Assembly: GCF_000020145.1 (NCBI RefSeq)
Contig: NC_010644.1
Location: 744,001-808,000 of the forward strand
Source of the DNA: Elusimicrobium minutum Pei191
GTDB lineage: Bacteria; Elusimicrobiota; Elusimicrobia; Elusimicrobiales; Elusimicrobiaceae
Length of the DNA: 64,000 nt
Direction of reading: 5' to 3'
Made by a program: the position numbers and the translations under genes. The notes beneath the pieces were generated by a model. That model made no database searches. It was not told the DNA's origin and worked only from the letters and a program-made list of their open reading frames with translations. This document shows, one piece after another, positions 21,625-24,986 of this stretch (position 1 is its first letter; each line of letters starts with the position of its first letter).

Positions 21625-23271
21625 ATGAGAAAAAGAAATCTGCAGTCAAAAGGATTCACATTAATTGAAATAGCTGTTGTTGTTCTAGTAATAGCTATTT
21701 TAGCTGCGGTGGCGCTGCCGCAGTACAAAAAGTCGTTAGAACGCTCAAGAGCTGCCGAAGCTTTTGACATTCTTACCGAGATAAGGAATAAACAAGAGGC
21801 AAGAGAACTCCTTGGCACGGGGACGGCCAAAGGCTATACTGTAAAGTTTAGCGATTTGGGGGAAGTTATAGAGGGTAAAACATCTACAACAAATACATTA
21901 GACACAGACCTCTTTACATATACACTTTCAAACAACCCATATCCGCAGGCGTATGCAAAAAGAAAGGATATGGATTATTCAATAGTGCAAGCTAATGGGT
22001 ACCAGGACAGTGCGTTATGCTGTTTGGGTAAAGATTGTAAGGTTGTAGACAGCGTTTTAAAAGGGTGCGAGAAGACTGCGTGCCCCACAACCTGCGCGAC
22101 TGGGCATAAAAGAACAGGATATTTTTTCCAGGAAGACGGGCCTTGCTGTGAGGCAAAAACAGCGTGTTCTGCAACATGTCTTGCGGGAGAAGAAAGAACA
22201 GCCGTACAATATATTGAAGACGGCGCCTGCTGCCAAACAAAGACTTGCGGTGCCGGGCAGACGCTTGTAGGCGGTATATGTAAAACAACGTGTCCCGCAA
22301 CATGCTCAGCAGGGGAAGAAAGAACAGCCGCGCAATATAGCGAAGACGGCGCTTGCTGCCAAACAAAAACTTGCGGCGCCGGACAGACGCTTGTAGGCGA
22401 TATATGTAAAACAACGTGCCCCGCAACATGTTCCGTAGGAGAAGAAAGAACAGCCGCGCAATATAGCGAAGACGGCCCGTGTTGTGAAACAAAATGCGAT
22501 TTTAATCAAATTATTGTAAACGGGGTTTGTAAAACACCTTGCGCGTCTCTATCTATTCCGCAAGGATATAAGAAAACTTCAAATAATTACTTAGAGGAAG
22601 AAGGCGGTTGTTATACTAAAGATAACTCCTGCCGCGCGCTTCCAAAATATTTTTGCGGCGGCAATAAACATGGCGGATATTGTGTACATGGCGGTTACTG
22701 GTCAGGCGGTACGGAATATCTTACCGCCGCGCCTGATTATATAGTCGGGTATGAATGTAAAAATTCCGTTACAGGAGAAGCTTGTGACGGCTGCGTTTTA
22801 CCTTTGGAAAACAAATGTTCTGACTCGGGCTTTTTTGAAAAAAATATGAATTTTTGCTGTAACAGCAGCCTTGGCGATCAACCTAAATGTTGTATAAATG
22901 TTATCTCCAGCAGCTGGCCGACTGAATGCGAGCCTCAAAACTTGCCGCAAGGCCAGCATTGTTCAATGGATAAAATGGTTATGGTATGTAAAAATCTTTT
23001 AGGAAACGCGTGTGTCTGCGCCAGTAAAGGCGGCGCGCTGCCGGCGGCTCCTTCTGATTATTGCAATAAAGGACAAGTGTATGACGACGGTGTTTGCAAA
23101 ACCATCTGTCCTAACTTCTGTCCTTCCGGTAAAGTAAGAAGCGGCTTGTATTTTAAAGAAGAGGGCGCTTGCTGCGTAGATGGGGATGGGGAAGATGATT
23201 CTTCTGATTCTATTGTCTTACCGGGCGGAGGAGGCTCTTTAGGCGACGTGGAAATTATCACTAAGTTTTAG
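21625..23271 (+). CDS. second giant pilin-like protein with Cys-rich repeats
   Basis: The 548-residue product is a paralogue of the gene at 9871: almost identical prepilin helix and head (SLERSRAAEAFDILTEIRNK, CC near 132), then Cys-rich units. It begins with one 28-residue unit, then 42-residue units of the form KTTCPATCSAGEERTAAQYS, EDGACCQT, KTCGAGQTLVGGIC. After a shorter third copy the sequence diverges into a 250-residue Cys-rich region rich in Gly, with one more unit (CPNFCPSGKVRSG, EEGACC) near the end and an acidic tail. AAGGAG precedes ATG. It ends at a terminator and a structured intergenic repeat. Confidence 0.88.
   Translation: MRKRNLQSKGFTLIEIAVVVLVIAILAAVALPQYKKSLERSRAAEAFDILTEIRNKQEARELLGTGTAKGYTVKFSDLGEVIEGKTSTTNTLDTDLFTYTLSNNPYPQAYAKRKDMDYSIVQANGYQDSALCCLGKDCKVVDSVLKGCEKTACPTTCATGHKRTGYFFQEDGPCCEAKTACSATCLAGEERTAVQYIEDGACCQTKTCGAGQTLVGGICKTTCPATCSAGEERTAAQYSEDGACCQTKTCGAGQTLVGDICKTTCPATCSVGEERTAAQYSEDGPCCETKCDFNQIIVNGVCKTPCASLSIPQGYKKTSNNYLEEEGGCYTKDNSCRALPKYFCGGNKHGGYCVHGGYWSGGTEYLTAAPDYIVGYECKNSVTGEACDGCVLPLENKCSDSGFFEKNMNFCCNSSLGDQPKCCINVISSSWPTECEPQNLPQGQHCSMDKMVMVCKNLLGNACVCASKGGALPAAPSDYCNKGQVYDDGVCKTICPNFCPSGKVRSGLYFKEEGACCVDGDGEDDSSDSIVLPGGGGSLGDVEIITKF
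22156..22491 (+). repeat. tandem 126-bp coding repeat
   Basis: Two full 126-bp units (from 22156 and 22282) and a truncated third encode the 42-residue Cys-rich module. The same 14-residue linker (KTCGxGQTLVGxxC) occurs once in the paralogue at 9871, so both proteins draw on the same two building blocks. Confidence 0.88.
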
Positions 23272-23527: not shown

Positions 23528-24781
23528 TTATTTTTTAAGCCAGTCCGGTATGGTTTGGCCTGATAACATTTCTTCATAAGTCGTTCTCTTGCGAACTACG
23601 GTAAAAGCGTTTTTGTTTACCATAACTTCCGGCACCAGCGGCCTGAAATTATAAACGGATGACATTGAAGAGCCGTATGCCCCTGCGCTCATCATAGCTA
23701 CAAGCTCGCCTTGTTTAACGGGTTCTATAATACGGTCTTTAGCGAAAGTGTCGCTTGATTCGCATATAGGGCCCACAATATCGGCCGTAATCGGCGCGAG
23801 GCCTTTTTTAACAACAGGCACTATTGTATGCCAGGAGTCGTACATAGCGGGGCGCATAAGGTCATTCATGCCAGCGTCAACAATAATAAAGTGTTTTGAG
23901 CCCATGTCTTTAGTAAAAATAACTTCACTTATTAATATGGCGGCCTCGCCTATTATGGAGCGGCCCGGCTCTATAATAATATGCTTATTAAACTTGCCTA
24001 AAGTTTCCTCTATAACTTGTGCGTAGGCTTCTTTGGTAGGGGGGAGTTCTACGTTATAATTAATACCTAAACCTCCGCCTAAATCAAGATTTTTTAAAAT
24101 AATACCTTCTTTCTCAAGTTCGCTTACCATGTCCGCCATTTTTGTAAAAGCAAGGCGGAAAGGGTCCAAATCCAAAAGCTGCGAGCCTATGTGCATAGCG
24201 ATACCTACTACGTTAAGGCCTTCCATTTTAGAGGCTTTAATATAAAGGTCTTTGGCTATATCCCAGTCAACACCGAATTTATTTTCTTTTTTACCCGTTG
24301 TTATTTTAACATGTGTTTTAGCGTCAACATCAGGGTTAACGCGAAGGGCGATATTGGCTTTTTTACCCAGTTTTAAAGCTATGTGGTTTATTGTGTTTAC
24401 TTCAGCTTCACTTTCGGCGTTTATTTGAAGAATTTCATTTTTAATTGCTTCCTCAAGTTCCCGTTTGGTTTTGCCCACTCCTGAAAAAACTATTTTATTT
24501 GCCGGTATGCCCGCTTTTAAAGCGATACACATTTCACCCGCGGAAACAACATCCGCCCCGCCGCCTAAAGAAGCTATTGTTTTAACTATTCCTAAATTGC
24601 TGTTTGCCTTAATAGAATAAGAGATTGTGTTTTTAAATTTTTTTAAAGCGTTGTCAAAATCTTTAAAATTTTTCGTTAAAATTTCGTTTGAATAAATGTA
24701 ACACGGCGTACCTACTTCTTTTGCGATAATTTCTACGGGAACGTTTTCTGCATGTAAAACGCAGTTTATATAATGGAACAT
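23528..24781 (-). CDS. lysA: diaminopimelate decarboxylase
   Basis: The 417-residue PLP enzyme makes L-lysine from meso-diaminopimelate, the last lysine step. YSIKANSNLGIV near residue 55 holds the PLP lysine; GGGLGINY near 230, EPGRSIIGEA near 275 and GPICESSDTFA near 340 (active-site Cys) are family signatures. AGGAG lies 8 nt before ATG. It is monocistronic. Its 5' leader encodes a lysine-rich 21-residue peptide followed by competing hairpins, suggesting lysine-controlled attenuation. Confidence 0.96.
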   Translation of the reverse strand: MFHYINCVLHAENVPVEIIAKEVGTPCYIYSNEILTKNFKDFDNALKKFKNTISYSIKANSNLGIVKTIASLGGGADVVSAGEMCIALKAGIPANKIVFSGVGKTKRELEEAIKNEILQINAESEAEVNTINHIALKLGKKANIALRVNPDVDAKTHVKITTGKKENKFGVDWDIAKDLYIKASKMEGLNVVGIAMHIGSQLLDLDPFRLAFTKMADMVSELEKEGIILKNLDLGGGLGINYNVELPPTKEAYAQVIEETLGKFNKHIIIEPGRSIIGEAAILISEVIFTKDMGSKHFIIVDAGMNDLMRPAMYDSWHTIVPVVKKGLAPITADIVGPICESSDTFAKDRIIEPVKQGELVAMMSAGAYGSSMSSVYNFRPLVPEVMVNKNAFTVVRKRTTYEEMLSGQTIPDWLKK

Positions 24782-24819
24782 AATTTATCTCCTATTCGTT
24801 TTGTTAAAATTTTCAAATT

Positions 24820-24855
24820 AAAAAGCCTCGTTAAATTGTAATTTTACGAGGCTTT
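24820..24855 (-). terminator. leader terminator of lysA (attenuator)
   Basis: On the minus strand AAAGCCTCGT pairs with ACGAGGCTTT around a 14-nt loop, followed by T residues. It lies 39 nt before the lysA start codon, between the leader peptide and lysA, so it must be read through for expression. Confidence 0.88.
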
Positions 24856-24880
24856 AAAAAAATTTATTTCGCAAAATTAC
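24838..24880 (-). promoter_or_regulatory. predicted antiterminator of lysA
   Basis: Minus-strand GTAATTTTGCG (24880 to 24870) can pair over 11 bases with CGTAAAATTAC (24848 to 24838), one pair being G-U. The second segment covers the 5' arm end and loop of the leader terminator, so the two folds exclude each other. The first segment starts only 4 nt after the leader-peptide stop codon. Confidence 0.65.
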
Positions 24881-24884
24881 AGGT

Positions 24885-24950
24885 TTAGGCTCCTAATGTT
24901 TTCTTAGAACCCTTTTTAACTGAATCTGTTTTTTTTGCGTTTTTTAACAT
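24885..24950 (-). CDS. lysine-rich leader peptide upstream of lysA
   Basis: ATG at 24950 opens a 21-codon frame ending in TAA at 24885. Seven residues are Lys, six of them in three adjacent pairs (KK at 6-7, 12-13, 16-17), and both AAA and AAG codons are used. No SD precedes it, but a promoter -10 box ends six bases upstream, so the mRNA probably starts at the ATG. Position between promoter and attenuator fits a ribosome-stalling leader peptide that senses charged tRNA-Lys. It is inferred, not a recognised family; A-rich sequence alone could give several Lys codons. Confidence 0.6.
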   Translation of the reverse strand: MLKNAKKTDSVKKGSKKTLGA

Positions 24951-24956
24951 AACAAT

Positions 24957-24986
24957 ATAATACAAAATATTAAGTTTTATATGCAA
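24957..24986 (-). promoter_or_regulatory. promoter of the lysA leader
   Basis: On the minus strand TTGCAT, 18 nt, then TATTAT. The expected start falls at the leader-peptide ATG. Confidence 0.6.

Follow-up and report, generated by a model that had tools for sequence, protein, structure and literature searches.

A leaderless, Lys-rich leader upstream of lysA in Elusimicrobium minutum as a predicted ribosome-mediated attenuator

The lysA gene of the gut bacterium Elusimicrobium minutum (phylum Elusimicrobiota), which encodes diaminopimelate decarboxylase and serves the final step of lysine synthesis, is preceded by a short open reading frame (ORF) rich in Lys codons and by an intrinsic terminator. 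The locus lies in a window of 64,000 nucleotides, the whole stretch of DNA analysed here, taken from a genome of 1,643,562 bp in a single contig. On the minus strand the order is a -35 element, 18 nt, a -10 element, 6 nt, the ATG of a 21-codon ORF, the terminator, a ribosome binding site and lysA (Table 1). On the far side of the leader lies a divergent gene, so the terminator must be part of either the leader transcript of lysA or an independent small transcript. An earlier reading of this DNA from its letters, hereafter the original prediction, had proposed an attenuator at this locus; the promoter pair, the Lys-rich frame, the terminator and lysA are all where it placed them, and the ORF indeed encodes a 21-residue peptide with seven Lys and three KK pairs.

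Folding of the 170-nt leader gave -36.1 kcal/mol, compared with -20.5 ± 3.6 kcal/mol for shuffled sequences (z = -4.4; 0 of 200 shuffles as low). In these models the three classical helices (1:2, 2:3 and 3:4) are all present and mutually exclusive. The 1:2 hairpin, an element that the original prediction did not mention, joins 24939-24926 with 24882-24870, so that CGCAAAA...ACAG within the ORF pairs with CUGUAAUUUUGCG on the 3' side of the stop codon. The 11-base pairing of 24880-24870, which begins 4 nt past the stop, with 24848-24838 was found as predicted, with one G-U pair, but its extent had been underestimated, as the antiterminator is larger and also takes the 3' arm of the terminator. 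Its main helix joins 24881-24869 with 24849-24837, and in the extension GGAGCCU (24893-24887) pairs with AGGCUUU (24828-24822). The total 2:3 duplex amounts to -22.3 kcal/mol, stronger than the predicted Rho-independent terminator, whose hairpin was recovered at -14.8 kcal/mol, and it beats all 300 shuffles. A set of 517 upstream regions from the genome yielded 45 short-ORF/terminator candidates, of which that of lysA ranked first.

Table 1. Features of the lysA leader (window positions) and of the two companion leaders (genome positions)
Feature	Position	Strand	Basis or remark
-35 element TTGCAT	24981..24986	(-)	sequence reading; TTGC kept here in most relatives
-10 element TATTAT	24957..24962	(-)	6 nt upstream of leader ATG; 18 nt from -35
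Leader-peptide ORF, leaderless (predicted), MLKNAKKTDSVKKGSKKTLGA and stop (7 Lys)	24885..24950	(-)	sequence; Lys positions invariant with AAA/AAG drift in 33 aligned relatives
Region 1 (CGCAAAA....ACAG, spans codons Lys6-Lys7), pairs with region 2 in the protector 1:2 hairpin	24926..24939	(-)	minimum-free-energy and centroid folds
Region 2, antiterminator 5' strand: 24893-24887 GGAGCCU and 24881-24869 UGUAAUUUUGCGA	24869..24893	(-)	duplex with terminator
Region 3, antiterminator 3' strand within terminator; second part 24828-24822	24837..24849	(-)	duplex energy
Intrinsic terminator (regions 3:4), U tract	24820..24855	(-)	hairpin -14.8 kcal/mol
lysA Shine-Dalgarno AGGAGA	24788..24793	(-)	sequence reading
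lysA, diaminopimelate decarboxylase, 417 aa, putatively regulated gene	23528..24781	(-)	NCBIfam TIGR01048, 480 bits, cut-off 298
Met-rich leaderless leader (predicted) MQKNLSNKAMMMSMSAMMSMMRMHSFAFRINF and terminator	G000:C1 ~306.25-306.42 kb	(-)	upstream of metY 304952-306217 (TIGR01326)
Thr-rich leaderless leader (predicted) MKLIRTASTTVTTTTTMDKLLAVFVLN and terminator	G000:C1 ~950.98-951.07 kb	(-)	upstream of other hom 949577-950893 (NF004976; L202)

Ribosome-mediated attenuation is a classical mechanism, and the anatomy, conservation, covariation and thermodynamic feasibility of this locus make it very likely, in our judgement, that a transcription attenuator of this kind, sensing charged tRNA-Lys, controls lysA. 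The predicted chain of events runs from the transcription start through peptide translation, stalling and readthrough to a response to lysine. Transcription would start on the first base of the leader ATG or beside it, and a ribosome would load on this leaderless end and trail the RNA polymerase. When Lys-tRNA is ample, the ribosome would reach the stop codon and cover region 2, leaving the 3:4 terminator to form and transcription to end before lysA. When Lys-tRNA is scarce, the ribosome would stall at Lys12, Lys13 or Lys16 and break the 1:2 hairpin; region 2 would then pair with region 3 and the terminator 3' arm, the terminator would not form and lysA would be transcribed. In the absence of a ribosome, the 1:2 hairpin would form and the transcript would terminate. 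With control confined to lysA, the earlier steps of the pathway, which also provide cell-wall diaminopimelate, would be left untouched.

The notion that a finishing ribosome covers the first segment while a stalled one frees it was already part of the original prediction, and it is consistent with a masking model in which the bases covered by the ribosome are kept unpaired and the terminator probability is computed at equilibrium. For the window leader this probability is 0.90 when no ribosome is present. It falls to 0.0-0.2 once the A site lies within codons 10-16, which cover Lys12, Lys13 and Lys16, and stands at 0.9 from codon 17 to the stop (a repeat run agrees). The model assumes a footprint that reaches 11 nt beyond the A site, leaves aside the RNA behind the ribosome and treats folding as an equilibrium and not as co-transcriptional. 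When the part upstream of the terminator was shuffled 150 times with its dinucleotides preserved, this ribosome-dependent switch never appeared. The stall codons are placed so as to cover region 1 and free region 2 in the window and in most relatives, again at equilibrium.

A complete Lys-rich leader precedes lysA in 37 of the 46 family genomes with a lysA match, that is, in 36 relatives and the window. The peptides are 21-31 aa long with 5-7 Lys in all 37 leaders, and each has an intrinsic terminator between the ORF and lysA. Two further genomes are truncated at this place: G062 retains only the downstream half of the leader, at a contig end, and in G101 the contig begins inside lysA. Alignment of the related lysA upstream regions, as the original prediction had suggested, revealed short frames in which the wealth of Lys codons is kept, variable flanks and covarying hairpins. 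Four Lys positions are invariant in all 33 leaders aligned around KxKK, three of the four vary between AAA and AAG, and the neighbouring residues are variable; peptide length and sequence diverge strongly between lineages, while Lys richness persists. In addition, the gap between the -10 element and the ATG is exactly 6 nt in 33 of the 36 leaders with a detectable -10 element, the window included. Invariant Lys residues with AAA/AAG drift, together with the fixed promoter gap, argue for a leader that is translated from a leaderless transcript and selected for lysine itself. The layout of ORF, terminator and gene before lysA was not found outside the family, in a sample of 30 phylum-wide and 13 same-order lysA loci screened with a crude filter.

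Covariation was measured in a plain MAFFT alignment of 33 leaders, which did not use structure in the fitting and excluded the window and L061. The 2:3 helix is 95.5% paired, with six pairs changed on both sides (0 of 500 shuffles), and sliding the partner strand cuts the pairing to 39-50%. The corresponding figures are four pairs for the 1:2 helices (2 of 500 shuffles) and three pairs for the 3:4 terminator helix (4 of 500), although the shuffle tests overstate significance because the leaders are related; the sliding control preserves this relatedness. Distinct compensated versions of the antiterminator occur among the relatives, namely GCUUACAAUU/AAUUGUAAGC, GCUUGCAAUU/GAUUGCAAGC and GCUUGUGCUUU/AAAGUACAAGC. 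A covariance model built on the relatives' leader was searched against 90 family genomes, and all matches with E < 1e-15 preceded lysA. The next match, with 81 bits, is an orphan Lys leader (L094 381-520; G085:C23:12279-12417) that has a terminator, no lysA behind it and a convergent PHP-like gene instead; it could be a relic, a small RNA or contamination of a metagenome-assembled genome. Among the weaker matches elsewhere, those inspected at G024:C129, G029:C2 and G005:C28 turned out to be plain terminators. The relatives' alignment A1 also contains, at columns 42-66, a CAAGAG/CUCUUG hairpin in the leader ORF with Lys-Lys codons in its loop, which may be a pause hairpin.

Three observations weigh against an attenuator of this kind. 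Seven family lysA genes lack the leader (G003, G008, G010, G018, G022, G026 and G001, the last from the same genus), and several of these seven sit directly behind another gene. About one-third of the relatives (e.g., L005, L051 and L055) keep the terminator at every stall position in the equilibrium model. Their 2:3 duplexes, at about -19 to -38 kcal/mol (duplexes of unequal length are compared), are at least as strong as the terminator, and a kinetic preference must be assumed for them because the terminator wins at every position; the same preference is assumed for the trp attenuator. Finally, the window's own leader is absent among the covariance-model matches listed for the 90 family genomes, so its kinship with the relatives' leaders rests on position and layout. 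It may have diverged beyond sequence recognition or arisen separately, and position, promoter spacing and layout favour divergence.

The lysine genes are cited as an example of L-box control (PMC1262725), and this riboswitch often acts via a terminator. However, neither the L-box (RF00168) nor the T-box gave an Rfam match in the window at the gathering score or at E <= 1, and control of lysA by either was rejected on this ground. An undescribed class of lysine-binding riboswitch could still drive the terminator, the Lys-rich frame being incidental to an A-rich RNA, and both the classical riboswitch control of lysine genes and the structured leader RNA would agree with it. Such a class is very improbable, as besides the missing Rfam match there is no aptamer-like conserved core across the lineages, whereas the Lys codons, whose third positions drift synonymously, the promoter spacing and the alternative pairings persist.

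Just as improbable is a functional small protein, or small RNA, that carries its own terminator, with lysA expressed from a separate promoter or by readthrough. The strong divergence in peptide length and sequence at constant Lys richness is difficult to reconcile with a small protein, even though the core of the peptide is well preserved within one genus, and the covariation between antiterminator and terminator would be needless for a stand-alone gene. The orphan copy in G085 would suit this explanation, but all other strong copies precede lysA. The least credible explanation is chance, with an A-rich region between divergent genes that happens to contain a terminator and a meaningless short frame: the Lys content of the ORF by itself departs only modestly from expectation (p = 1.1e-3 for a single ORF of this genome), but the shuffle statistics for fold, duplex and switch, the first rank among the candidates and the conservation in 36 relatives all oppose it. 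Chance is already refuted, for the relatives by covariation and for the window by the switch statistics.

The attenuator proposed for lysA resembles the trp, his, thr and leu leaders (RF00513, RF00514, RF00506 and RF00512), which likewise have an ORF rich in the regulated amino acid, exclusive 1:2, 2:3 and 3:4 hairpins and a terminator before a biosynthetic gene. It differs from them in its Lys specificity, its lysA target, its leaderless ORF and its occurrence in Elusimicrobiota, and no Rfam model matches it above the respective gathering score. Leader-peptide attenuation responding to lysine is reported from Thermus thermophilus by Tsubouchi et al. in J Biol Chem in 2005; that attenuator reportedly controls the alpha-aminoadipate pathway cluster and not diaminopimelate decarboxylase. 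It would thus share the lysine response and differ in the target.

The original prediction had also considered the peptide leaderless, which the conserved 6-nt gap between the -10 element and the ATG supports, and had called this unusual for an attenuator, although several precedents exist. The S. meliloti trpL (PMC10117765) and the S. lividans leuL, trpL1, ilvL, thrL and metL leader peptides (PMC8079986) are leaderless, with the AUG at the transcript 5' end as proposed for lysA; they concern other amino acids and phyla, and none of them is for Lys. The metL leader of S. lividans, which precedes a transporter and has no clear terminator, is a weak methionine case (PMC8079986). A survey from 2010 extended the known range of leader peptides, until then limited to Proteobacteria and Actinobacteria, to Firmicutes (PMC2965389). 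Equivalent attenuators based on Lys or Met codons were not found in the open literature searched, although their absence is not proven. Thus, the mechanism is known, while the phylum, the gene and the combination appear new, and leader-peptide attenuation seems previously undescribed in Elusimicrobiota.

Companion leaders in the same genome make the lysA leader more interesting than it would be alone. They emerged from a genome scan, viewed post hoc, for short ORFs that open with an ATG 5-7 nt downstream of a -10 element and are followed by a terminator and a gene; the candidates were sorted by the bias of their amino-acid composition. Three of the four best candidates are a Met-rich ORF upstream of metY, a Thr-rich ORF upstream of hom and the Lys ORF of lysA; the other, a K/C-rich candidate at 1560.6 kb, is an artefact, being the end of a longer upstream frame read in the same phase. 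Downstream of metY lie a MetA-like gene (named by eye) and then a hom gene. Complete Met-rich leaders occur at the same place in four relatives (L210-L213), each with the -10 element 6 nt before the ATG, and that of a fifth (L214) is cut by the contig end. Codon bias, layout, strong 2:3 duplexes and conservation point to the Met leader as a possible methionine attenuator. The Thr leader is predicted to be an attenuator from codon bias and layout; no second example was found, the hom matches in relatives sitting behind a MetA-like gene. In the equilibrium model the terminators of the Met and Thr leaders are unresponsive to masking, except in G002.

In each of the three genuine top candidates the amino acid fits the gene, which would be difficult to account for in another way. 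The lysA leader is very probably a true attenuator of the ribosome-mediated kind that responds to lysine, one of a set across the branches of the aspartate family. Lys/lysA, Met/metY-metA-hom2 and Thr/second hom probably form a matched set of leaderless attenuators, a stand-in based on tRNA charging for the L-box and S-box riboswitches. Riboswitches are usually cited for the control of lysine and methionine genes, and leader-peptide attenuation is seen as confined to few phyla. In this divergent phylum, ribosome stalling appears to serve for lysine, methionine and threonine alike, in each case from a leaderless frame. If true, the set would include a Met-codon attenuator on a biosynthetic operon. 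It also makes it possible to test whether coupling to RNA polymerase is tight enough for attenuation when 70S ribosomes initiate on a bare AUG, and provides a search recipe for unannotated genomes: an ATG 6 nt after a -10 element, biased codons and a terminator.

Two minor observations concern the neighbouring coding sequences. The LysA of Elusimicrobiaceae (window 23528-24781) is about 52% identical to alphaproteobacterial LysA, compared with 39-44% to the LysA of the neighbouring family, and a horizontal origin is possible. Beyond lysA, at 21625-23271 on the plus strand, the window encodes a pilin-like protein of 548 aa with the N-terminal sequence GFTLIEIAVVVLVIAILAAVALPQ and a Cys-rich repeated segment (CPATCSAGEERTAAQYSEDGACCQTK...).
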